Source: Actinotalea solisilvae (lineage in GTDB: Bacteria > Actinomycetota > Actinomycetes > Actinomycetales > Cellulomonadaceae). Taken from it: a stretch of DNA of 64,000 bases. This document shows, in pieces, positions 1,234 to 41,734 of this stretch. The stretch spans positions 1-64,000 of the forward strand of contig NZ_JADDKQ010000004.1 of the NCBI RefSeq assembly GCF_016464425.1, in the 5' to 3' direction. The notes beneath the pieces are model-generated. The model saw nothing but the letters and a program-made list of their open reading frames with translations. It ran no database searches and had not been told where the DNA came from. How positions within the stretch are numbered: position 1 is the first letter of the stretch; each line of letters begins with the position of its first letter. A program made the translations under genes and the position numbers.

Positions 1234-2567
1234 CACGGCTCCCTTCCTGCCGCGGGTGCGGCGCTGGCGGCCCGGCGTCGGGCCAGGAGGACGACGGCGG
1301 CGACGGCGACGACGCCGACCCCGCCCAGGACGATGGGGAGTGCGGGACCGGCCCCCGACCCGACGCCGTCGGCGTCGGAGTCCGGGCGGGGCGCGGCGGT
1401 GGCCTCAGCGGTGGGCGTCTCGGACGGCTCGGCGGTCGCCTGCGGCGACGCCGCGGCGATCGCGTCGAGGACCTGCTGGGTGGTCGGGACGACAGTCCCG
1501 GGGTCGTCCAGCGGACGAAGGAACGGGTTCTCGTCGGGGTACTGCGTGGGGTCGGCCTCGAGGAGCTTGAGGATCGCCACCGGGCCGTACCCCCACTGGG
1601 GGTGGTGCTCGAGGTCGGGGTTCTCGATCGCCGTGTTGCGGATGAGCGCCTGCATCATCTGGTTGCCCGTGGCGTCCGGATGCTGCGACCACGCGAGCGC
1701 GATCGCCCCCGCCGTCCACGGCGCGGCCATGCTCGTGCCGCTCGCGAGCCGGTAGCTGTCCCACGAACCCGCGGCCGCGTCGTACCAGCGGATGTCCTCG
1801 CCCGGCGCGACGACGGCGAGGTACGGGCTCGAGGTGGTGTCGGTCTCGGGGTCGAGCTGGAGCGCCGAGTCCGACATCTCGACCATCACGACGCCGTTGC
1901 CCGACCCGGGCCAGCCGATGACGCCGTCGTTGCCCGGCGCGGCCACGATGACGACACCGGCGGCGTACGCCCGGGCGACCGCCTCGCCGATGGTGTTGTT
2001 CCACGCGCTGCCGCTCGACATGCTGATGATGTCGGCCCCCTGGGCCACGGCGTCGTCGATGCTCTCGGCGACCGGTGCGAGGTCGTCGACGTACCCGGCG
2101 GACCCGAGGCACGCGGGGCCGTCGAGGTCGCCCTCCTGCCAGCCGGGCGCGTGCATGGAGTACGTGAGGACCGTCGCGCCGGGCGCGACACCGCGGATGC
2201 CCGGCTGCCCACCAGCCCCGGCGCCCGTCCCGACGAGGAGCGCCACCGTGCCCGTCGCGTGCTCCGCGTCCGGCCCGGTCGACGTCTCGCTGGGCGTCAC
2301 GCCGTCGGGCGCGCCGCAGAAGCTCGGCCGGACGACGACGTTCGCCCCGACGAGGTCGGGTGCTGCCGGGTTCACCGGGCCGTCGATGACGGCGATCGTG
2401 ATGCCCTCGCCCGTGGTCTGCGCGTGCGCCTCGTCGATGCCGGTCTCGGTGATGTACCAGAGGCCGTCGCCGGCGCCGGTCGAGGCCGCGGCGGGCAGGG
2501 CCGACGCGAGCAGCGCGGCGCCCAGCGCGAGCGCCGCCGCGGGGCGGGCCGTCCGCCGCACCGTCAC
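1233..2567 (-). CDS. Membrane-anchored mycosin-like S8 serine protease
   Basis: This is a subtilisin-family protease of 444 residues. The N-terminal signal peptide (about 1-28) ends near LPAAAS. The catalytic triad is Asp62 (AVIDGP), His103 (EHATGTV) and Ser279 (ASGTSMAAP), with oxyanion Asn213 (APGND). After a Pro/Ser/Thr linker, one transmembrane helix (about 410-432) is followed by an Arg-rich cytoplasmic tail, as in mycosins that act on the outer face of the membrane in type VII secretion. The HATGT context of the histidine departs from the usual HGT. The GTG start at 2567 overlaps the upstream stop by four bases (GTGA). It is the second mycosin of the locus; the other is at 6917-8209. 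Confidence 0.85.
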   Translation of the reverse strand: MTVRRTARPAAALALGAALLASALPAAASTGAGDGLWYITETGIDEAHAQTTGEGITIAVIDGPVNPAAPDLVGANVVVRPSFCGAPDGVTPSETSTGPDAEHATGTVALLVGTGAGAGGQPGIRGVAPGATVLTYSMHAPGWQEGDLDGPACLGSAGYVDDLAPVAESIDDAVAQGADIISMSSGSAWNNTIGEAVARAYAAGVVIVAAPGNDGVIGWPGSGNGVVMVEMSDSALQLDPETDTTSSPYLAVVAPGEDIRWYDAAAGSWDSYRLASGTSMAAPWTAGAIALAWSQHPDATGNQMMQALIRNTAIENPDLEHHPQWGYGPVAILKLLEADPTQYPDENPFLRPLDDPGTVVPTTQQVLDAIAAASPQATAEPSETPTAEATAAPRPDSDADGVGSGAGPALPIVLGGVGVVAVAAVVLLARRRAASAAPAAGREP

Positions 2568-6920: not shown

Positions 6921-8209
6921 GGACGCTCGGGCGCCTCGTCCTCGGCGCGGCCGGTCTCGCGCTGGCGTCGGGGCTCGCGCTGCCCGGGGCCGCGGCCGCG
7001 CCCGGGTCCGCCGGCGCTCCCGGCACGCCGACGCCGTCGGGGCGCGTGCCGACCGCCGTCGGCCAGTGCACCCCCGAGAAGGTGCAGTACGTCGCGCAGG
7101 AGCCCCCCGCGCTGAACCGGCTCGGCGCGCGTGACGCGTGGCGCACCGCGACCGGCGCCGGCATCGTCGTCGCGGTGGTCGACTCGGGCGTGGACCCGGC
7201 GAACACCCACCTCACGCCCGCGGTGCTGCCCGGCGTCGACGTCGTCGGGCTCGAGGGTGACCCGCGCGGCTGGACCGACACGGCGGGGCACGGCACGGCG
7301 GTCGCGGGGATCATCGCCGCGCGCCCGTGGGAGGGCTCCGGGCTCGTCGGGCTCGCGCCCGACGCCACGATCCTGCCGGTGCGCGTCTACTACGCGGACG
7401 ACGAGCAGGCGGTCGAGGCGGGCGTCCAGCCGCAGACGGGTCGCATCGCCGAGGGCATCCTCTGGGCGGTCGACAACGGCGCGCGCGTCGTCAACGTGTC
7501 CATCAGCAGCACCGTCGACGACCCGGTGCTGCGCGACGCCGTCCGCGTGGCCACCGAGCGCGGCGCGCTCGTCGTCGCCAGCGCGGGCAACCGGACGACG
7601 GCGGAGGACACCACGGACTCGCCGCGCTACCCCGCGGCGTACGACGAGGTCCTCGCCGTGACCGCGGTCGACGCCGGGGACAGCGCCACCGAGGACTCGA
7701 TCCACGGCCCGCACGTGGAGATCGCCGCTCCCGGCACCGACGTCCTCACGACGTTCCACGCCGCGGGCGACTGCGTGCTCGGCGGCGCGGCGTCGTCGAG
7801 CTACGCGACGGCGTACGTCAGCGCGGCGGCGGCGCTCGTGGCGCAGGCCTACCCGGGCGAGCGGCCGGCGCAGTGGGCCCACCGTCTCACGGTCACCGCG
7901 GCGCGCTTCGTCGCGGACGCGCGGGACGACTGGGTGGGCTGGGGCGTCGTGCGGCCGTCGTCCGCGCTCGCGTTCGTCGACGACGGCTCGGCCCCCGGGC
8001 CGCCGAGCCCGGCGTACGAGGCGCCCGTCGTGACGCCCCCGCGCCCGGCGGACCTCGAGCTCGGCGCGCCCGAGGATGTCCTCGCGCCCGCCCAGGCGGT
8101 CTCCACGTGGTGGCTGCTCGGCGGCGTGGGTGCGTGCCTCGCCGCGCTCGTCGTGTCGCGGCTCACGGGGCGCCGCCGCCGGGAGCGCGCCGCGGCCGCG
8201 ACCACCTGA
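6917..8209 (+). CDS. mycP: Type VII secretion-associated mycosin (S8 serine protease)
   Basis: This 430-residue protease has a signal peptide (about 1-28), catalytic Asp89 (VVDSGVD), His125 (GHGTAVAG), oxyanion Asn225 (SAGN) and Ser295 (SSSYATAYV), then a Pro-rich linker and a C-terminal transmembrane helix (about 397-417) with an Arg-rich tail. Cys51 and Cys286 are placed like the mycosin disulfide. Mycosins stabilise the ESX complex and process exported proteins. The GTG start overlaps the eccB stop (GTGA). The serine is in SSSYA rather than the usual GTSFA, so activity is likely but not certain. Confidence 0.9.
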   Translation: MRTLGRLVLGAAGLALASGLALPGAAAAPGSAGAPGTPTPSGRVPTAVGQCTPEKVQYVAQEPPALNRLGARDAWRTATGAGIVVAVVDSGVDPANTHLTPAVLPGVDVVGLEGDPRGWTDTAGHGTAVAGIIAARPWEGSGLVGLAPDATILPVRVYYADDEQAVEAGVQPQTGRIAEGILWAVDNGARVVNVSISSTVDDPVLRDAVRVATERGALVVASAGNRTTAEDTTDSPRYPAAYDEVLAVTAVDAGDSATEDSIHGPHVEIAAPGTDVLTTFHAAGDCVLGGAASSSYATAYVSAAAALVAQAYPGERPAQWAHRLTVTAARFVADARDDWVGWGVVRPSSALAFVDDGSAPGPPSPAYEAPVVTPPRPADLELGAPEDVLAPAQAVSTWWLLGGVGACLAALVVSRLTGRRRRERAAAATT

Positions 8210-33934: not shown

Positions 33935-34594
33935 TCAGTGGCCGTGCCCCGAGGGCGTCGCGACGTCCCCGGACGGTTCGGGCGTGCCGTGGGTGCCGTG
34001 CGGGACGGCGGCGGCGCCCGCGGGCGTGGCGGCCAGTCCCGGGGTGGTGAGCGCGGCCACGACGACGGCGGCCGCCCCCCATCCGAGGAGCGTGCGCCAG
34101 GCGCCCGGGGCGGTCGCGCGGCCCGGGGCCCCGGCTGCGGGCGCACCGCGGCCGCCGTCGGTGCGCGACGCGAGCGCGGACGCTCCCGCCGCGAGGACGC
34201 CCAGGGCCACGACCGCGACGTCGGCGGCCGACAGCCCGCCGTCGTGCGGGACGACGCGCTGCGCCACGAGCGCGGGCCACGCGCCCGCGACCACGAGGAG
34301 GGACACCGCCGCCGGGCGCGCCGAGACCGGTCGGCCCGCGCGCAGCGCGAGCAGCGACCACCCCGTCTCGGCGAGCCCGACGGCGGCCAGGGCGAGCGCC
34401 CACGCGGGACTCGTCGCGTGGGCGCTCGCCAGTCCGAGGTGGACGACGCCGGCCCCGAGCGCCCCGAACGCCGCGAAGGCGAGGCGGGTGCTGCCCGGCC
34501 CGGCCGGCGCGACGGGCCCGACGCGGACCGCGGGGACCGCGCGGACCGCGGGGACCGCCGGGGCGGGGGCCAGGGCGAGGGCCGGCGCGGCCAT
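33935..34594 (-). CDS. Membrane protein with His-rich tail, unknown function
   Basis: This 219-residue protein has about five predicted membrane helices (first near 30-50, last near 175-195) and an Arg-rich loop at 130-150. The C terminus (about 200-219) is His/Gly/Pro-rich (HGTHGTPEPSGDVATPSGHGH pattern, given here only as composition), which may bind a metal. I do not recognise the family. The ATG overlaps the stop of the DUF4383 gene by one base, so they are cotranscribed. A helper role for the DUF4383 protein is inferred. Confidence 0.65.
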   Translation of the reverse strand: MAAPALALAPAPAVPAVRAVPAVRVGPVAPAGPGSTRLAFAAFGALGAGVVHLGLASAHATSPAWALALAAVGLAETGWSLLALRAGRPVSARPAAVSLLVVAGAWPALVAQRVVPHDGGLSAADVAVVALGVLAAGASALASRTDGGRGAPAAGAPGRATAPGAWRTLLGWGAAAVVVAALTTPGLAATPAGAAAVPHGTHGTPEPSGDVATPSGHGH

Positions 34595-35019
34595 CAGGCG
34601 GTCCGGGCCGTGGTCGCGCGCGTGGTGCCGGTGGCGTCGCGGTCGGCCGCCAGGCCGACGCCGAGCAGCAGCAGGGCGCTCGCGAGGTGCAGCACGTTGT
34701 CGGCGCCGTTGAGGGCCAGGATGTTCGCGGCCGAGCCGACGAGGAACAGGCCGACCACGCCGACGAGCAGGTAGACCGCGCCCACGGTGGCGTTGACGCC
34801 GCGAGCCGCCCGCACGGAGGTGCGCGCCGCCACGAGGAGCGCCGCGCCGATGCCCAGGTGGACGATGTTGTGCAGGGGGTTGACGTCGAACACGACGAGC
34901 GGGTTGCCCTCGGTCGCGGCGAACCCGACGCCGCCCGTGACGGCGAAGCCGGCCGCGCCGACCAGGAGGTACACGACCCCGAAGACGGTGCCGAGCAGTC
35001 GGTTCGGTGAGCTGTTCAT
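34594..35019 (-). CDS. DUF4383 family membrane protein
   Basis: This 141-residue protein has four predicted helices. The motif NPLHNIVHLGIGAALL (about 47-62) and the later ADNVLHLASALLLL mark the DUF4383 family, widespread in actinobacteria and of unknown function. The ATG at 35019 follows GAGAGG. It is first in a two-gene operon divergent from the sigma/CHAT operon. Confidence 0.88.
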   Translation of the reverse strand: MNSSPNRLLGTVFGVVYLLVGAAGFAVTGGVGFAATEGNPLVVFDVNPLHNIVHLGIGAALLVAARTSVRAARGVNATVGAVYLLVGVVGLFLVGSAANILALNGADNVLHLASALLLLGVGLAADRDATGTTRATTARTA

Positions 35020-35220
35020 GGTGCGTGCCTCTCGTTCCAGCGGACGGCGGGCGCCGTCGTCGGTCGGTGGTGGTTCGGAGCGCCGGTCGCCCCGGATGGG
35101 TCGGTCCTCGGGTGCGCGCGAGATCCGTCCCCCGTCGGGTGTCACAGACGCGCCGTCGCGCGCTCCTCCCCGATGAGGCACGCGCGTGCCAGGACGGGAG
35201 GAGCCCGGTGTCGCAGGTCG

Positions 35221-35250
35221 TTGTGGGCCCACGGTCGGCGTCGATACGCT
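35221..35250 (+). promoter_or_regulatory. Candidate sigma-A-like promoter of the sigma/subtilase/CHAT operon
   Basis: TTGTGG (35221-35226), an 18-base spacer and TACGCT (35245-35250), 35 bases upstream of the sigma gene. The same -10 occurs at the rplJ and rpoB promoters, so this operon may use the housekeeping sigma factor. Confidence 0.45.
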
Positions 35251-35285: not shown

Positions 35286-35912
35286 ATGAACCCCACAGCG
35301 GGACCCGCAGCCGACGACGTCGGAGAACGCACCGGCCTCGCCGCGCTCGCCGCCGCCGCGCTCGAGGCCTACCGCGCGGGGCGCACCGCCCCGCTCGAGG
35401 ACCTGGTCCGCGAGGCGACGCCGCTGCTCTGGCACGTCGTGCGGTCGCAGGGGGTCGAGCGCGACGAGGCGCAGGACGTCGTCCAGGGCGTCTGGCTCGC
35501 CTTCGTGCGCAGCGCCGCGACCATCCGCGAGCCCGACGCGGCGCTCAAGTGGCTGCTCGTCAGCGCCCGCCGGGCGGCGTGGCAGGTGGTCGCTCACCGG
35601 CGCGGCGACGCCCGCCGCACCACCGCGCTCGACGACGACGGCGTCGCGCACCCCGAGCTCCGCTCCCCGGACCCGGCGCCCGACGAGTCGGTGGTGACCG
35701 ACGAGCGCGACCGCGCCCTGTGGCGCCGGTTCGTCCTGCTGCCCGAGCGGTGCCAGCAGGTGCTGCGCTTCGTCGCCATGGCCGACCGGCCCGACTACCG
35801 CGCGATCGCCGAGGTCACGGGGATGCAAGTGACCGCCGTCGGCGTGACGCGCGGCCGCTGCCTGGCCAAGCTGCGGGCGCTGCTCGCGACCGAGGAGGTG
35901 TGGGGCGCATGA
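35286..35912 (+). CDS. Sigma-70 family (ECF-like) RNA polymerase sigma factor
   Basis: This 208-residue factor has region 2 (about 45-105), containing DEAQDVVQGVWLAFVR and the -10-binding helix RRAAWQVVAHRRGD, and region 4 (about 140-205), containing PERCQQVLRF, YRAIAEVTGM and TRGRCLAKLRALL. No other domain is present. The ATG at 35286 is 35 bases after a sigma-A-like -10. Its stop overlaps the next ATG (ATGA), which in many operons marks a partner or anti-sigma. It is the first gene of the CHAT operon and may switch on target genes for the protease cascade, which is inference. Confidence 0.9.
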   Translation: MNPTAGPAADDVGERTGLAALAAAALEAYRAGRTAPLEDLVREATPLLWHVVRSQGVERDEAQDVVQGVWLAFVRSAATIREPDAALKWLLVSARRAAWQVVAHRRGDARRTTALDDDGVAHPELRSPDPAPDESVVTDERDRALWRRFVLLPERCQQVLRFVAMADRPDYRAIAEVTGMQVTAVGVTRGRCLAKLRALLATEEVWGA

Positions 35913-36400
35913 GCACCGACGAGACGTTCCCGGCCGACGCGCCGCTCGACGCGGGGGACCTGCGCGTCCTCGCGGGCCTGCGGCGCACGCTCGACGCTGT
36001 CGACCCCGTGCCCGCCGACCTGGTCGAGCGGTCGCTCTTCGCGCTCTCGCTCGAGGCGCTGCACACGCAGGTCATGGAGCTCCAGCTGCTCGAGGTGCCC
36101 GAGATGGCCGTGCGCGGCGGCGACACGACGGTCGAGGCGCGGACCATCACCTTCACGGCGGAGCCCGTCACGGTCATGATCACCCTGTCCGTGTCGCCGT
36201 CGGGCGGCGTGCGGATCGACGGCTGGGCCGCACCGGCGCGCCGCTACGACGTCGAGCTCCTGCGTCCGGGCGGCAGCGTGCGCACGCAGACCGACGACGA
36301 CGGCGGCTTCGTGCTGCCGGACGTGCCCCCCGGCCCGGCCGGCCTCGTGCTGCGGCACGACTCCGGACCGGCCGTGAGCACGCCGGTGATCGAGCTGTGA
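35909..36400 (+). CDS. Small protein with carboxypeptidase-regulatory-like beta domain, sigma partner
   Basis: This 163-residue cytoplasmic protein has no signal peptide or membrane helix. Residues 20-65 are helical (RVLAGLRRTLDAVDPVPADL). Residues 68-163 look all-beta and end with ELLRPGGSVRTQTDDDGGFV and LPDVPPGPAGLVL, a carboxypeptidase-regulatory (transthyretin-like) pattern. I know no enzyme of this kind. The start is coupled to the sigma-factor stop, so it could be a soluble anti-sigma-like regulator or the adaptor between the sigma factor and the protease gene products. Confidence 0.7.
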   Translation: MSTDETFPADAPLDAGDLRVLAGLRRTLDAVDPVPADLVERSLFALSLEALHTQVMELQLLEVPEMAVRGGDTTVEARTITFTAEPVTVMITLSVSPSGGVRIDGWAAPARRYDVELLRPGGSVRTQTDDDGGFVLPDVPPGPAGLVLRHDSGPAVSTPVIEL

Positions 36401-36464
36401 CGCGCGTCCCGCGCGACGACCGACCGACCCGCACCACGACCAGCACCACCACCGAGGGGGACGC

Positions 36465-38132
36465 ATGACGCAGGAGAGCAGTGACCGCCGCGCCCGCGCA
36501 CGCTCGGAGCGGCCCGAGAGCCTCGCCTGGCGCGTGCGGACGCTCGACCCCCGCAGCGCCGCGCGGCGCGGCGGCGCGGCGGACCCCGCGCCGACGTCGT
36601 ACCTCACGGACCAGCTGATCGTCTTCGGGAGCCAGGCCGACGCCGCCGACCTCTCCCCGCTCCTCGAGGTCGCCGAGCGGCGCGGCTGGACGCTCGACGT
36701 CGACCCCGCGGACCTCCGCGACGCACGTCTGCTCGAGCAGGCGGACCTCTCCGGGCTCGCGCGCGAGGCGATGCAGTCGGGCGCCTCGTTCGCGGTCCGC
36801 GTGCGCCCCGGGAAGGGCTCCGTGGCGCCCGCGCCGGACGCCTGGGAGCTCGTCGAGTCCTTCCGTGCGCTGGACTCGGGTGCCCTCCGCGTGTCGCTCG
36901 ACCACCTCGTGGTCGCGACGCCGGGCATCGGCGGGGCGCCGCTCACCGACCCGCACCCGCTGACGGACCCGCACCCCCTGACGGACCCCCACCCGCTGAC
37001 CGACCCGCACCCGGTCTCCGGGATCCCCGAGTACGCCGTGCCCGGCTGGGGCGGGCGCAGCGCGGTGGCGTGGGTCGGTCCGCGGCCCGTGCGTCGTCAC
37101 GGCGACGGCGAGTCGGTCGTGACGACGAAGGGCGGCCTGCCCCGACCGGTGGTCGCCGTGCTCGACACGGGTGCCGGCACCCACCCCTGGCTCGGACCGG
37201 ACGTCGTCGTCCGGGACCCGAGCGTGCTCGGCGTGCCCGTCGGCCCGTTCCCGGTGCTGCCCCCGGCCGAGGACCCGGAGGACGGCGGCATGGCGGGCTC
37301 CCCCTTGACCGGCGGGCTCGACCCCGCCGCGGGCCACGGGACCTTCATCGCGGGCATCGTGCACCAGCGGTGCCCGGACGCGGTCGTCCTCTCGTGCCGG
37401 CTGTACGGCGGGGTCGGCGTGATCGCCGAGTCGGACCTGCTGCGCGGCCTGCGCCGGCTGCTCCTGTTCCACCTGCTCGGGCTCGCGGGGCGTGAGGGCT
37501 ACGTGCCGGTCGACGTGCTCAACCTGTCGCTCGGCTACTACCACGAGCGGCCGGAGGACGCGCTCTTCGACAGCCCGTTCGGGTCCGTGCTCGCGGCGCT
37601 CCGGACCCAGGGGGTCGCGGTCGTCGTGTCCGCGGGCAACCACGGTGACCCGCGTCCGCTGTTCCCGGCGGCGTTCGCGCCCCCGGTCGCCGGCAGCCCG
37701 CCGGTGCCCGTGCCGCCCGCCGTGCTCGACGACGTCCCGCCCGTCGTCTCGGTGGGGGCGCTCAACCCCGACGGCACGACCGCACTGTTCAGCAACGACG
37801 GGCCCTGGATCACGTGCCTGCGGCCCGGAGCCGCGGTCGTCAGCACGCTGCCGACGCCGACGGACGGGTCGCGGGCGTCCTCGCGCTCGCTGCCCGGCCG
37901 GCGCGCGGGGGAGGAGCGCTCGACGCTGGACCCCGACGGGTTCTCGGGCGGCTTCGGCGTCTGGAGCGGGACGTCGTTCGCCGCACCCGTCCTGGCGGGC
38001 GACGTCGCCGCCGCGCTCCTCGAGGCGCGCGAGCAGGGCGGCGTGACCGCGTCGTCCGTCACCGACCCCGCCGGGCGTCGCGCGGCGGCGTGGGCGGCCA
38101 TCACGGCGGCCACGGGGCTGCGCCCCGCGTGA
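36465..38132 (+). CDS. Cytoplasmic S8 subtilase with PLTDPH repeats
   Basis: This 555-residue protein lacks a signal peptide and membrane helix. Residues 1-158 form an unknown N-terminal region, perhaps a prodomain (SYLTDQLIVFGSQADA near 45-60). Residues 159-182 are four exact PLTDPH repeats. The subtilase domain follows with Asp234 (AVLDTGAG), His291 (GHGTFIAG), Asn392 (SAGNHGD) and Ser504 (SGTSFAAP), all intact. The ATG follows GAGGGGGACGC. Between the sigma/adaptor pair and the CHAT protease, it is a likely executor or substrate of CHAT in a two-protease cascade, which is inference. Confidence 0.9.
   Translation: MTQESSDRRARARSERPESLAWRVRTLDPRSAARRGGAADPAPTSYLTDQLIVFGSQADAADLSPLLEVAERRGWTLDVDPADLRDARLLEQADLSGLAREAMQSGASFAVRVRPGKGSVAPAPDAWELVESFRALDSGALRVSLDHLVVATPGIGGAPLTDPHPLTDPHPLTDPHPLTDPHPVSGIPEYAVPGWGGRSAVAWVGPRPVRRHGDGESVVTTKGGLPRPVVAVLDTGAGTHPWLGPDVVVRDPSVLGVPVGPFPVLPPAEDPEDGGMAGSPLTGGLDPAAGHGTFIAGIVHQRCPDAVVLSCRLYGGVGVIAESDLLRGLRRLLLFHLLGLAGREGYVPVDVLNLSLGYYHERPEDALFDSPFGSVLAALRTQGVAVVVSAGNHGDPRPLFPAAFAPPVAGSPPVPVPPAVLDDVPPVVSVGALNPDGTTALFSNDGPWITCLRPGAAVVSTLPTPTDGSRASSRSLPGRRAGEERSTLDPDGFSGGFGVWSGTSFAAPVLAGDVAAALLEAREQGGVTASSVTDPAGRRAAAWAAITAATGLRPA
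36939..37010 (+). repeat. Four 18-bp tandem repeats coding PLTDPH
   Basis: Four in-frame 18-base units (36939-36956, 36957-36974, 36975-36992, 36993-37010) code the same hexapeptide. Most of the base differences are at third codon positions. The repeat joins the N-terminal region to the protease domain of the subtilase. Confidence 0.95.
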
Positions 38133-38156
38133 GCGCCGCGGCGCACGGGTGAGCCG

Positions 38157-40925
38157 ATGGGCGGGCGGATGACCCCGGGGGCGGGGACCGACGTCGTGCT
38201 CGACGCGCTCCGCGCGCTCGAGGAGGGCTTCGAGCACAACTCCGCGGGTCGGCCCGCCCGCGCGTCGAGCGCGTTCCGCGAGGTCCTGCGCCGCCTGCCG
38301 ACGTCGCCCGCCGACCCGCCGGGAGCCGCGCCCCGGGGGCAGCGCGCGGGCAGCCGACCGGCGCCGGACCCGGGGGACCACGCCGCCGACGTGGCGTACC
38401 TGCGGGCGCGCGCGCTGCTGGGCCTCGTCATGAGCGACTTCGAGCTGCGCGCCGATGTCGCCGCGAGCCTGGCCGTGCTCGACGAGGCCGAGACGTGGGC
38501 GCGCAGCGGCGGCGCGACCGGGGTCGAGGTCGCGGTGCTCGGCCAGCGCGGGCTCCTGCGCATGCGGGCCGGGGACCCGCGGCAGGCGCTGCGCGACCTC
38601 GACCGGGCCGTCGCGATGCTCGACGCCGCCGAGCCCGTCGACGCGTGCCGCGTGCTGCTCAACCGGGGCTCCCTCGCCCTCGAGCTGGGCCAGCGGGCGC
38701 GGGCGCGGGCCGACCTCGAGCGCAGCGCCGAGCGCGCGCACGCGATCGGGCACGCCCTGCTCGAGTTCAAGGCCCGGCACAACCTCGGCTACGTCGAGTT
38801 CCTCGCGGGGGACCTGCCCGCCGCGCTGGGAGCGATGGCCGACGCCGAGGAGCTCGGGCCACCGGACTCGCTCGCCGCGGCCCTCCTCGACCGCGCCCAG
38901 GTGCTGCTCGAGGCGGGGCTCACGAGCGACGCCGACCGGATGCTCGCGCGCGCGGCCCGGACCCTCGCGGAGCAGCGCCTCGTGCACGACCTGGCCCAGA
39001 CCGAGCTGGCGCGCGCGCACGTCGCCCTGGTCACCGGGCGACCGCACGACGCCCTGCGGTGGGCGCGCTCCGCACGTCGGCGGTTCGCGCGTCGGCACAA
39101 CGCGCAGTGGTCCGAGCGCGCGGAGCTGGCGGTGCTCCGGGCGTCGCTCGCGGTGCTCGAGGACGGCGGCGGTGCCCGGCCCGCGGGCACCGCCCCCGAC
39201 GGCGCGGACGCCGGGACGGGAGCTGCGGGCGCCGGGGCGGGAGCCGAGGCGCGCGACCGGGCCGCGCGCGTGCGGCTGGCGCGGCGGTGCGAGGCGCTCG
39301 CCGCGGTCGCGTCGGCCGGGGTCGCCCGGGCCGCCCGCGCCACCGCGGCCCAGGCGCTCGTGGCCGCCGGTGCGACCGACCGCGCCCGCGTGCTCGTGGA
39401 CGCGGTGGGGCGGCTGAGCACGCGCGACCTCGCCCTGACGCTCCAGGTCCGCGCGGTCCGCGTCCAGATCGCGCTCGCCGAGGGCCGGCCGGACGTGGCC
39501 CGGCGCGAGACGCGCGCCGGCCAGGCGCTGCTCGCCGACCAGCGGCGGCGGCTCGGCTCCGTCGAGGCGGTGACCGCCGCCGCGGTCCACGGGGAGCGCC
39601 TCGCGCTCCTCGACGTCGGCGCCGCGCTCGCGTCGCGGGACCCCGCCGCGGTGCTGGCGGCGGTCGAGCGCGGGCGGGCGACGACGGCCGGTCCGGCGCG
39701 CGTCCGCCCGCCGGACGACCCCGTCCTGGCCGAGGTGCTCGCCGAGCTGCGCCAGGGCATGGAGCGGGCGCGCGCCCGGCCGCCGGGCGAGGTGCCGCCG
39801 TCGGTCGAGCGGGAGCTGGCCCGCCTGCGGTCGCACGCGCGCGAGCGCACGTGGCGCCTGGGGGAGGGCACGCGCGCCCCCAGGGCGGTGACCGCGCGAC
39901 AGCTGCTGCGGGCGCTGCGGCCCGTCGGCCCGCGGAGCGCCGTCCCGACGGCGGCGCCCGGCACGACGGTCGCGGACCTCGTCGCCCACGACGGGCGCGT
40001 CCACGCGGTCGTCGCGGACCCAGCGGGGCTGCGGCTGCTCGACCTGGCGCCGCTCGCGGCGGTCGACGAGGTGGCACGCCGGCTGGGCGCCGACCTCCAG
40101 GTCCTGGCCAACCCGCTGCTGCCGGCGGCGCTCCGCGACGGCGTCCGGCGGTCCCTGGCGCGCGGCCTCGAGCAGCTGGACGCCCACCTCGTCCGCCCGC
40201 TGGGCGCGGACGGCCCGCTGCACGTCGTCGCCGGCGGCGCGCTCGTCACCCTGCCGTGGGGGCTCGTGCCGTCGCGGGTCGGCCGGGCGACGAGCGTGAG
40301 CCCGCGCCTGCAGCTCGCGCCGGTGGGCGAGCGCGCCACCGACGCCGTCGCGCTCGCAGGCCCCGGGCTGGGGCACGCGCGGGCGGAGGCCGAGGTCGTC
40401 GCCGCGACGTGGCCGCGCGCTCGGCTCCTGGTCGGCGAGGCCGCCACCGCGTCCGCCGCCACCGACGCCCTGCGCACCGCGGGCGTCGTCCACCTCGCCG
40501 CGCACGGACGGCACGAGGCCGACAACCCGCTCTTCTCGTGGGTCCGGCTCGCGGACGGCCCGCTCTTCGCGCACGAGCTCGAGGGCGCCGTGCTGCCGGG
40601 CTCGCTCGTGGTGCTGTCGGCGTGCGAGGTCGGGCGCGCGTCGGTGCGTCCGGGGGGCGAGGTGCTCGGCCTCGCGAACGTCCTGCTGCGCCTGGGCGCG
40701 GGCGCCGTCGTCGCGTGCCTCGCGCCCCTGCGCGACGCCGTCGCGGCGCGGGTCATGCCCACGCTGCACGTCCTCGTGCGGGGCGGCGCGAGCCCGGCCG
40801 AGGGGCTCGCCGCCGCGTGCTCAGGCGTCGACGAGCCGGTCGCGCTCACCTGCTTCGCGCCGCTCGCGGTGGACCTCCCCGAGCACCGCCGCGACGACGC
40901 CGGCGGCCAGCACCGCGGCGGGTGA
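38157..40925 (+). CDS. TPR-CHAT domain protein (caspase-like cysteine protease)
   Basis: This 922-residue cytoplasmic protein has helical TPR-like repeats over about residues 20-560 (for example AVLGQRGLLRMRAGDPRQALRD) and a C-terminal CHAT domain (about 620-910). The dyad is intact: His783 in VVHLAAHGRHE and Cys823 in VVLSACEVGR. CHAT proteases are relatives of caspases and separase; TPR-CHAT proteins include Csx29. TPRs usually hold the protease off until a signal is bound. The ATG at 38157 has a weak ribosome-binding site; the ATG at 38169 is an alternative. The last 105 bases overlap the convergent subtilase gene. It closes the sigma operon. Confidence 0.93.
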   Translation: MGGRMTPGAGTDVVLDALRALEEGFEHNSAGRPARASSAFREVLRRLPTSPADPPGAAPRGQRAGSRPAPDPGDHAADVAYLRARALLGLVMSDFELRADVAASLAVLDEAETWARSGGATGVEVAVLGQRGLLRMRAGDPRQALRDLDRAVAMLDAAEPVDACRVLLNRGSLALELGQRARARADLERSAERAHAIGHALLEFKARHNLGYVEFLAGDLPAALGAMADAEELGPPDSLAAALLDRAQVLLEAGLTSDADRMLARAARTLAEQRLVHDLAQTELARAHVALVTGRPHDALRWARSARRRFARRHNAQWSERAELAVLRASLAVLEDGGGARPAGTAPDGADAGTGAAGAGAGAEARDRAARVRLARRCEALAAVASAGVARAARATAAQALVAAGATDRARVLVDAVGRLSTRDLALTLQVRAVRVQIALAEGRPDVARRETRAGQALLADQRRRLGSVEAVTAAAVHGERLALLDVGAALASRDPAAVLAAVERGRATTAGPARVRPPDDPVLAEVLAELRQGMERARARPPGEVPPSVERELARLRSHARERTWRLGEGTRAPRAVTARQLLRALRPVGPRSAVPTAAPGTTVADLVAHDGRVHAVVADPAGLRLLDLAPLAAVDEVARRLGADLQVLANPLLPAALRDGVRRSLARGLEQLDAHLVRPLGADGPLHVVAGGALVTLPWGLVPSRVGRATSVSPRLQLAPVGERATDAVALAGPGLGHARAEAEVVAATWPRARLLVGEAATASAATDALRTAGVVHLAAHGRHEADNPLFSWVRLADGPLFAHELEGAVLPGSLVVLSACEVGRASVRPGGEVLGLANVLLRLGAGAVVACLAPLRDAVAARVMPTLHVLVRGGASPAEGLAAACSGVDEPVALTCFAPLAVDLPEHRRDDAGGQHRGG

Positions 40926-41660
40926 CGACCCGCGCAGGCGCACGACGCCGTCCCGCCCCGCCGCGGGCACGTCCGACCCGGGTGCGCTGAGGTCGCCCCG
41001 CGCGCTGCAGCCCGGCAGCAGGCCGGCGTCGTCGTGCGCGGTGACGGCGGTGACCCCGGAGACGGACGCGGGGAACGCGAGGACGTCGGGCCCGAGGTCG
41101 CCCGCGGCGACGACGACGCGCACGCCGCTCTCGGCGACCGTGCGCAGGACCATCGCCACCCGGCGGCCGAGGCGGCGTCGGCCGAACGGCAGCACGAGGA
41201 CCTGAGCGCCGTCGGCCACCACGCGCCGGACCGCGCGCACGAGCAGCTCGTCGCTGGTGAACCCGCCGACGGTGAGCACCGGGACCACGAGCAGGTCCGC
41301 GTCGGGCACGAGGCCGAGCACGTCGCGCTCGCCCTGGCCGACGAGCAGCGACGCGTGGGCCGTCGCACGCGCCGACCCCTCCGCCGTGGCCGCCACCGCG
41401 GGGACCCGCGTCCGGCCGCGGTCCCAGACGCGCGCCCCCCGGAGGTCGGGGTGCGCGGCGTCGACGACGCCGTCGAGCAGCGCGACGCGCACGCCGGCAC
41501 CGGTGCGGGGGAGGTGCGTGGGCGGGTAGGCCACGCGCGGGACGCCGAGCGGCGCCCGCCGTCGGTCGCCGAGCCACCGACCGGCCAGCCAGAGCCCGAC
41601 GTCGACGGGCTCCCCGCCGTCGACGTCGCGTACCGTCGGGGTGCTCAGCAGCGCGGTCAT
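40821..41660 (-). CDS. Second subtilase-like protein, atypical S8 peptidase
   Basis: This 279-residue cytoplasmic protein has the subtilase order Asp63 (VALLDGVVDAAHPDL), His102 (ATAHASLLVG) and Ser246 (LRGSSPAAVLAAG), but the oxyanion Asn is Asp188 (AAGDLG) and the motifs around His and Ser are loose. It may be a weak enzyme or an inactive regulator of the intact subtilase. The ATG at 41660 follows GAGGAGGG. Its 3' end overlaps the CHAT gene by 105 bases, and its 5' side faces the rplJ promoter. The pairing with the island is inferred from position and family. Confidence 0.75.
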   Translation of the reverse strand: MTALLSTPTVRDVDGGEPVDVGLWLAGRWLGDRRRAPLGVPRVAYPPTHLPRTGAGVRVALLDGVVDAAHPDLRGARVWDRGRTRVPAVAATAEGSARATAHASLLVGQGERDVLGLVPDADLLVVPVLTVGGFTSDELLVRAVRRVVADGAQVLVLPFGRRRLGRRVAMVLRTVAESGVRVVVAAGDLGPDVLAFPASVSGVTAVTAHDDAGLLPGCSARGDLSAPGSDVPAAGRDGVVRLRGSSPAAVLAAGVVAAVLGEVHRERREAGERDRLVDA

Positions 41661-41734
41661 CGCCGGTCCCTCCTCGTCGCGGCCCACGTCCTCCAGGAGC
41701 GCGCGGCCGGCGCCGTGTGACACCACGGCGCGAT

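Follow-up and report, generated by a model that had tools for sequence, protein, structure and literature searches.

A possible autoregulated, protease-gated sigma factor switch in a recurrent gene module of Actinotalea solisilvae and other Actinomycetota

Organization of the locus and the proposed switch

The locus considered here lies in the first 64,000 nucleotides (nt) of contig NZ_JADDKQ010000004.1 of Actinotalea solisilvae (assembly GCF_016464425.1; this whole stretch is called the window below). The set is placed between the ribosomal protein genes rplA and rplJ of this high-GC actinobacterial genome and includes an extracytoplasmic function (ECF)-type sigma factor of 208 amino acids (35286–35912, forward strand), a small partner protein of 163 amino acids (35909–36400, forward), a probably cytoplasmic S8 subtilase of 555 amino acids (36465–38132, forward) and a TPR-CHAT protease of 922 amino acids (38157–40925, forward), faced by a gene for a subtilase-like protein of 279 amino acids (40821–41660, reverse). 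The five open reading frames, reported at these coordinates in an earlier sequence-only reading, were borne out together with the ATGA overlap between the sigma gene (end at 35912) and the small gene (start at 35909). Its domain calls (sigma, subtilase, TPR-CHAT and facing subtilase-like) agreed with the domain searches: the sigma factor matched TIGR02937 (51.6 bits at a cut-off of 42.9, residues 37–198) and Sigma70_r2 (26.6 bits), both above the curated cut-offs, Peptidase_S8 exceeded its curated cut-off in both the subtilase and the facing protein, and in the TPR-CHAT protein CHAT was above and TPR_2 narrowly above the cut-off. No separate region-4 Pfam model matched the sigma factor at E ≤ 1.

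The explanation favored here is an autoregulated, protease-gated sigma switch, similar to the CASP system and operating without CRISPR; it is put forward tentatively, as quite possible rather than probable, and we infer the binding, the cleavage, the order of the steps and the signal. The observations that carry it are that the sigma and small genes are nearly inseparable, that the module also includes CHAT and S8 genes, that the active sites are kept, and that the window's clade and several others have a promoter-like motif before the leading gene of the module, be it sigma or subtilase, and before some adjacent genes. At rest, a housekeeping promoter would keep all of the proteins at a low level, with the sigma factor held by the small protein. 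A signal sensed through the TPR arm would activate CHAT, which would cut either the small protein itself or the tether of a subtilase zymogen, the freed subtilase then cutting the small protein. The freed sigma factor would fire its own promoter as well as the promoter of the facing pseudo-subtilase, and the switch would thereby amplify itself; the proteases themselves would be the main output, and the pseudo-subtilase would most likely damp or target them. The small protein is thus proposed to be an anti-sigma factor that is broken down once CHAT is active, either directly or via the subtilase. Release of the sigma factor by proteolysis, already suggested in the sequence-only reading, is the most economical interpretation by analogy with CASP, in which the TPR-CHAT protease Csx29 cleaves Csx30, an inhibitor (anti-sigma factor) of the ECF-like CASP-sigma, and sigma sites within the locus have led to a proposal of positive autoregulation (PMC10028731, accessible text). 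If true, the type III-E logic of an anti-sigma factor cleaved by CHAT would exist as a stand-alone chromosomal signalling device, and caspase-like and subtilisin-like proteases would share one bacterial cascade.

Recurrence and gene order of the module

The searches covered Actinomycetota genomes, plasmid, phage and viral collections, and one untargeted scan of genome contigs with the subtilase. The subtilase query led to 37 fetched loci, all from Actinomycetota according to their titles, the closest fetched relative (79% identity in the subtilase) belonging to a record titled Actinotalea ferrariae. By blastp with the window proteins, the sigma-small pair was present in 36 of the 37 loci, CHAT likewise in 36 and the facing gene in 5; the exceptions were L025, which starts at a contig end, and L038, which has no CHAT match. 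The genes rplA (L1; 33144–33863, forward) and rplJ (L10; 42018–42548, forward) flank a conserved insertion site: rplJ stood beside the set in 23 of the 37 loci and rplA in 20, with both flanking it in 20. Thirteen loci (L031–L043) had neither; 11 of them were ordered subtilase-sigma-small, with CHAT next in 10.

A profile of the small protein (E ≤ 1e-4) found the family in 35 of 396 genomes of the phylum sample and in 87 of 296 genomes (about three of ten) of the class sample, the window's own included; no characterized member was found in the literature searched. Besides the window, the profile gave 122 places, 103 of which were covered by 100 stretches, the 19 left out being mostly weak and several of them lying on short contigs. 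The sigma gene was directly before the small gene in 94 of the 100 stretches; CHAT was present in 68, S8 in 57 and both in 54. Across the fetched loci as a whole, the gene order varied from sigma-small-S8-CHAT (35 loci) to S8-sigma-small-CHAT (21 loci), a reversed CHAT before S8-sigma-small (13 loci), and others. Neither CHAT nor S8 was nearby in 29 loci from 28 genomes. A member of the CHAT family was present elsewhere in 22 of the 24 genomes checked, namely 23 of those 28 plus G479, included because its locus held only a weak CHAT fragment; the misses were G611 (75% complete) and G386. Eleven such unlinked CHAT loci were fetched and all of them had an S8 match within about 1 kb, mostly weak (54–90 bits); L219 also has a sigma-small pair, and the separation in L217 may reflect a contig break. 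In the class sample, 84 of the 87 genomes with the small protein and 19 of the 209 without it had the CHAT family at E ≤ 1e-20 (Fisher P 8e-51, a value which ignores shared ancestry and for which scoring was limited to the few top candidates of each genome). In G581, one of the three exceptions, a CHAT gene is visible in the fetched locus L142.

Chance assembly of unrelated genes was rejected in view of this recurrence and linkage across loci, and the four genes are a real module of Actinomycetota. The earlier claim that they form a functional set, against which rare co-occurrence elsewhere would have spoken, is supported by these counts: sought across actinobacterial genomes, the same set recurs with a shuffled order in the 37 subtilase loci and the 100 small-protein stretches.

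Sigma factor and small protein

With both fetched sets combined and three duplicates removed, the sigma gene was directly upstream of the small gene in 127 of 133 distinct loci. In the first locus set the two genes overlapped by 4 nt in 28 of 36 cases and lay at most 16 nt apart in all 36. The small protein is regarded as a candidate anti-sigma factor on the basis of the gene coupling. The only family match of the window copy, to CarboxypepD_reg, was below threshold, and the same model was matched at E ≤ 0.1 by 20 of 31 members of the small family. The AlphaFold model (mean pLDDT 88, pTM 0.56) contains helices at residues 15–31 and 38–62, a low-confidence linker (65–72) and a seven-stranded beta domain (78–149), and no peptidase catalytic domain is apparent. 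A comparison of the small-protein profile with solved structures by sequence gave nothing at E ≤ 1. Neither the window proteins nor the aligned small, subtilase and CHAT families have a hydrophobic N-terminal stretch, which makes a cytoplasmic place of the module proteins plausible.

Combinations of this kind are in print as ECF54, an actinobacterial ECF sigma group with carboxypeptidase, subtilase and CHAT proteins conserved nearby, for which the published proposal is that the proteases degrade the sigma factor directly and thereby hold it in check at rest, with no anti-sigma factor involved (PMC8999054, accessible text). For the module described here we consider direct degradation unlikely: it leaves unexplained a small protein coupled to the sigma factor in 127 of 133 loci and lacking an apparent peptidase catalytic domain, and the proteases would be induced by the very sigma factor which they destroy, which would make a damping loop, although such a loop is possible.

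Proteases and the repeat tether

Of the 98 aligned subtilase homologues that reached 60 bits, 97 had the catalytic Asp (D234) and all had H291, N392 and S504; among the 104 CHAT homologues that reached 150 bits, His783 and Cys823 were present in 103 and the last one had a gap there (both sets include a few duplicate loci). The intact triad of the subtilase and the intact dyad of the 922-residue TPR-CHAT protein had been read correctly from the sequence, and the cytoplasmic location given there for the subtilase is plausible. No solved CHAT protein was matched by the CHAT profile at E ≤ 0.01, with Csx29 structures being present in the PDB.

The subtilase model consists of an alpha/beta N-domain (approximately residues 24–150), a low-confidence repeat tether (153–204) and a catalytic domain (approximately 228–524). 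Foldseek aligned it with pro-subtilisins over about 500 columns at a low template modelling (TM) score of about 0.4, and 'pro-domain-like' is only suggestive as a description; the second subtilase of L032 matches the fervidolysin prodomain. The tether in the window is composed mostly of LTDPHP repeats, four full copies of which were located by repeat analysis at 36942–37013 (forward). The PLTDPH linker singled out in the sequence-only reading is thus a real stretch, but it represents one example of a fast-changing repeat tether and not a conserved site: TDPH occurs in 2 of 58 fetched homologues of at least 300 bits, and a single conserved PLTDPH cleavage site was rejected.

A perfect tandem repeat with a unit of 5–12 residues was found in 52 of 54 fetched subtilase homologues of at least 300 bits, or in 56 of 58 if the duplicate loci L044 and L046 are counted, compared with 2 of 122 sigma, 0 of 54 small and 6 of 106 CHAT proteins used as controls (at least 100 bits). 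Among weaker S8 homologues, 4 of 40 had at least three copies; of three other S8 proteins recovered from the genome as a control, two had no repeat and one a C-terminal repeat of 2.8 copies. Among the close homologues listed, 22–60 residues separated the repeat end from the catalytic Asp motif. In all, 43 different units were found in 54 non-identical arrays, of which three belonged to more distant homologues; 47 arrays had a hexamer, Gly or Pro occurred in all 43 units and an aromatic residue in 36. The window unit, written in common codons, was found in its genome in this array only.

Copies within one array differed by up to 0.42 synonymous and 0.033 non-synonymous changes per site (ratio 0.08), the latter figure being biased low because the arrays were detected via perfect runs. 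Between relatives, the unit differs in every copy at once: the window has PLTDPH and A. ferrariae has PFTDPH in subtilases whose catalytic domains are 88% identical, with a synonymous divergence of 0.36 between the species and of 0.45 and 0.70 within the arrays. Among 13 pairs with different units, the synonymous divergence of the array equaled or exceeded that of the gene in both arrays in 5 pairs, in one array in 5 and in neither in 3, counts which are limited by codon bias and short arrays. The subtilases of the two S8-CHAT pairs present in each of L034 and L039 also differ in unit (MYDGHP or LYDGHP versus FTSGGP). Selection seems to preserve the likeness of the copies in one protein, whereas between lineages the unit shifts, as expected of a motif fitting a changing partner. 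The lineage-specific unit probably serves as a docking or cleavage site that is present in several copies and fitted to the cognate CHAT. Going further, the tether might be a rapidly changing recognition code by which the TPR-CHAT protein of each lineage docks on or cuts the repeat of its own subtilase, separating paralogous or foreign pairs within a cascade from a caspase-like protease to a subtilisin zymogen that feeds back via its own sigma factor; this extension is regarded as doubtful. The tether would then be a natural specificity system which is testable, with 43 units in hand.

The facing gene overlaps the 3' end of the CHAT gene by 105 nt. Its product in the window keeps Asp63, His102 and Ser246, with an Asp at the expected oxyanion Asn. 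At the Asp/His/Ser places its five relatives have A/L/A, H/Y/A, D/L/G, G/Y/G and G/H/A, i.e., the Ser is lost in all five together with Asp, His or both. The second subtilase-like gene of the earlier reading is present and facing as described, but is best called a member of a pseudo-subtilase lineage, and seems to be co-regulated with the sigma factor.

Apart from the module, the same genome has a second CHAT gene at G000:C28:136204-137160 (L001), in an open frame of 1398 residues. Two more subtilase domains lie in the window at 1587–2411 (reverse) and 7154–7945 (forward), with Peptidase_S8 matches stronger than those of the module.

Promoter motif and regulon

The sigma gene is preceded by a predicted promoter of its own, TGTCACA-N15-GCTC (35140–35165, forward), which starts 146 nt before the ATG, and a second predicted sigma promoter of the same form (41697–41722, reverse) starts 62 nt before the ATG of the facing gene. 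This bipartite motif was first found by inspecting the upstream alignment of 18 sigma-first sequences; the sigma-first counts therefore describe the motif and are no test of a prior hypothesis, and the sites before the facing gene and in the subtilase-first and Streptomyces-like loci are more independent. The regions before first genes, at most 350 nt each and 46,512 nt in total, contained 34 copies of TGTATCA-N14..16-[C/G][C/T]TC, compared with 38 copies in the other 4,495,352 nt (both strands). Within 750 nt before the first gene of the module, 60 of 134 loci had the form TGTATCA-N14..16-N[C/G]TC, compared with 37 of 2680 random windows (1.4%). These 60 comprised 36 of 84 sigma-first, 24 of 41 subtilase-first and 0 of 9 CHAT- or small-first loci: the motif moves with the operon, standing before sigma in the sigma-first and before the subtilase in the subtilase-first loci.

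With at most one mismatch and TGTCACA allowed, the motif preceded sigma in all 22 sigma-first sequences of the rplA-rplJ group; L011 and L014, outside this count, carry the exact motif. It preceded sigma in 7 of 7 members of the Actinotalea group and, with at most one mismatch, the facing gene in 5 of 6 cases (two mismatches in the sixth), compared with 19 of 2000 background windows. In ten Streptomyces-like loci it preceded S8-sigma-small in 10 of 10, and a second copy was located 34 nt before the gene beyond CHAT in eight (L064, L065, L069, L071, L122, L124, L129 and L131), L070 and L073 being without this second site. The gene beyond CHAT encodes LuxR and AAA domains (one representative scanned), and its mRNA is likely leaderless, since the start codon is so near to the motif. 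Own copies of the motif were also found before the second subtilase in L032 and L035 and before a trypsin-like gene in L047. Nearer to the sigma start, 12 of 22 sequences had a housekeeping-type pattern TTGT-N18-TA..T, picked after viewing the alignment, as did 5 of 2200 background windows; its predicted representative in the window, TTGTGG-N18-TACGCT (35221–35250, forward), would give basal expression.

A wide sigma regulon found no support: in 61 family genomes the motif occurred 59 times and the reversed pattern 50 times, with 17 of the motif sites directly before sigma, and in nine Streptomyces-like genomes the respective figures were 38 and 66, with 16 of the 38 at the module. With no genome-wide excess over the reversed-pattern control, the regulon seems to consist of the module and its neighbors, pointing to narrow self-amplification, and the module probably turns itself on via its own promoter.

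The narrow self-regulon, the vertical-looking positions and the motif-bearing LuxR/AAA gene of eight of the ten Streptomyces-like loci also suit a developmental response or one to proteotoxic stress; in the loci that have it, the LuxR/AAA regulator would form a branch downstream. A response of this type, which we rate as rather unlikely, is compatible with the protease-gated switch and differs from it in the signal only.

The window genome has six motif sites, the two at 35140–35165 and 41697–41722 included, and two for the reversed control pattern. The remaining four (L146 at G000:C25:207426, L144, L145 and L149) may be due to chance, given the two control sites; the site in L146 lies 53 nt before a gene for what we take to be a Sua5/YrdC protein. 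In L190 and L191, from related genomes, the motif is located 148 nt before another ECF-like sigma gene, and in L171 and L192, from two genomes with the Oerskovia-type module, some 200–240 nt upstream of a gene that is presumably AbiEi-like.

Evidence against the switch and further alternatives

Several results weigh against the protease-gated switch. None of the 31 small-family members matched an anti-sigma family, and a fold search with the small protein gave nothing at E ≤ 0.001, the best hit being a CBM56 beta domain (5.5e-3). Covariation between sigma and small was above the null, but so was that between small and CHAT, with hub-like columns, and it was set aside as proof of sigma-small binding; a charge-complementary contact between sigma residues 144/150 and small residues 36/40 (window numbers) was not supported by a charge test. 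The sigma-small pair stood alone in 26 loci, some of them at contig ends. The exact TGTATCA motif was absent in 74 of the 134 loci, only seven of which belong to the rplA-rplJ group, where the one-mismatch or TGTCACA form occurs; the f95 loci fetched had no exact motif except for L106, L107 and L111, with sites more than 400 nt upstream. The lack of a genome-wide motif excess also counts here, as do the Streptomyces-type S8 proteins, which have no repeat tether. Finally, L034 (refetched as L044) and L039 (refetched as L046), each with two S8-CHAT pairs and one sigma gene, have two and three small genes, respectively, beside the protease pairs, and the small protein may serve the proteases.

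This surplus, together with the resemblance of the small beta domain to carboxypeptidase-regulatory domains, favors a role of the small protein on the side of the protease pair, as its substrate adaptor, inhibitor or chaperone, through which the sigma factor would only sense the protease state. Such a role is nevertheless judged fairly improbable, because elsewhere the small protein accompanies sigma and not the proteases, as in the 26 loci with sigma-small only, and is without an adjacent sigma gene in 6 of 133.

The defense role considered in the sequence-only reading received little support. CHAT and S8 proteases occur in defense systems, and weak PADLOC matches were obtained (4.1e-6 and 1e-7 with the subtilase model for the main and the facing protein, respectively; BovA, 0.0012 for CHAT), but an anti-phage or regulated cell death system is very unlikely in view of the fixed chromosomal sites (rplA and rplJ flanking 20 of 37 loci, and a shared flank in 10 of 10 Streptomyces-like loci), CHAT matches in only 1 of 72,556 plasmid records (that one of 11.85 Mb) and 1 of 50,697 phage records, no confirmed viral contig with the subtilase profile, and no RAMP match in the genome. 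At the level of component models, PADLOC 2023 gave no strong match, only the weak single-component ones. Among phage-labelled sequences, a 7.5 kb record from human faeces, titled 'Bacteriophage sp.' and carrying no annotation, encodes a match with 36% identity to half of CHAT (MT838002.1:3316-4701) and is possibly bacterial DNA.

Comparison with known systems

The sequence-only reading knew of no characterized system with this gene set, which is, however, already in print as the ECF54 context (PMC8999054, accessible text); in the literature searched, partly accessible, it is known as a sequence-defined group without experiments. An ECF-type sigma factor (TIGR02937) and a context of carboxypeptidase-regulatory-like, subtilase and CHAT proteins are found both there and here; the comparison rests on sigma type and gene context rather than on the group model or SFT86700.1 (Geodermatophilus amargosae). 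The accessible text of the review assumes no anti-sigma factor, whereas here the small carboxypeptidase-regulatory-like protein, locked to sigma and without an apparent catalytic domain, is a candidate for it. The self-promoter, the pseudo-subtilase and the repeat tether, present here, were not found in that text. Likewise, a self-promoter with a pseudo-subtilase target, the anti-sigma role and a hypervariable tether were not found in the literature searched, in which tandem repeats were rarely targeted; the ECF54-defining papers (Casas-Pastor 2021; Huang 2015) may already give the promoter motif or more.

As far as the accessible texts go, the module shares with CASP/Craspase of type III-E (PMC10028731, PMC9729208) a TPR-CHAT protease with the His/Cys dyad, an ECF-like sigma factor and a partner protein, and differs in having a second protease (S8) and no Cas7-11: the whole genome had no RAMP (PF03787) match, compared with matches in 4 of 14 control genomes. 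EACC2-caspase systems also combine a caspase-like peptidase, TPR (a DUF1822 TPR protein) and an ECF sigma factor in one neighborhood, and signalling via sigma has been proposed for them; the accessible description has constant EACC2/caspase and variable effector domains and no S8 plus TPR-CHAT set (PMC8195603). The self-regulated ECF41, according to the accessible text, has the promoter TGTCACA-n16-CGTC and a narrow regulon; the module motif resembles it in the TGTCACA-type -35 element, self-regulation and narrow regulon, in contrast to the CGTC at -10, the fused C-terminal regulatory domain and the COE-protein targets of ECF41 (PMC3426412).

Neighboring genes and other observations

An open reading frame for a small multi-pass membrane protein, presumably DUF4383-like, is located at 34594–35232 (reverse) between rplA and the sigma gene. 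A Pfam scan of ten representatives of neighbor clusters placed eight in families without an evident link to the module and gave no match for two. In several f95 loci (e.g., L085–L089, L095 and L096) the sigma-small pair occupies a shared place apart from the S8-CHAT pair, next to a DUF3071 gene (which we take to be SepH), a phosphodiesterase and DUF5998 genes, with thymidine kinase in L086–L089 and L096. The name or purity of the L011 record (titled Sphaerisporangium cinnabarinum ATCC 31213) is doubtful, because Cellulosimicrobium funkei (L027) has the identical small protein and an almost identical sigma factor.

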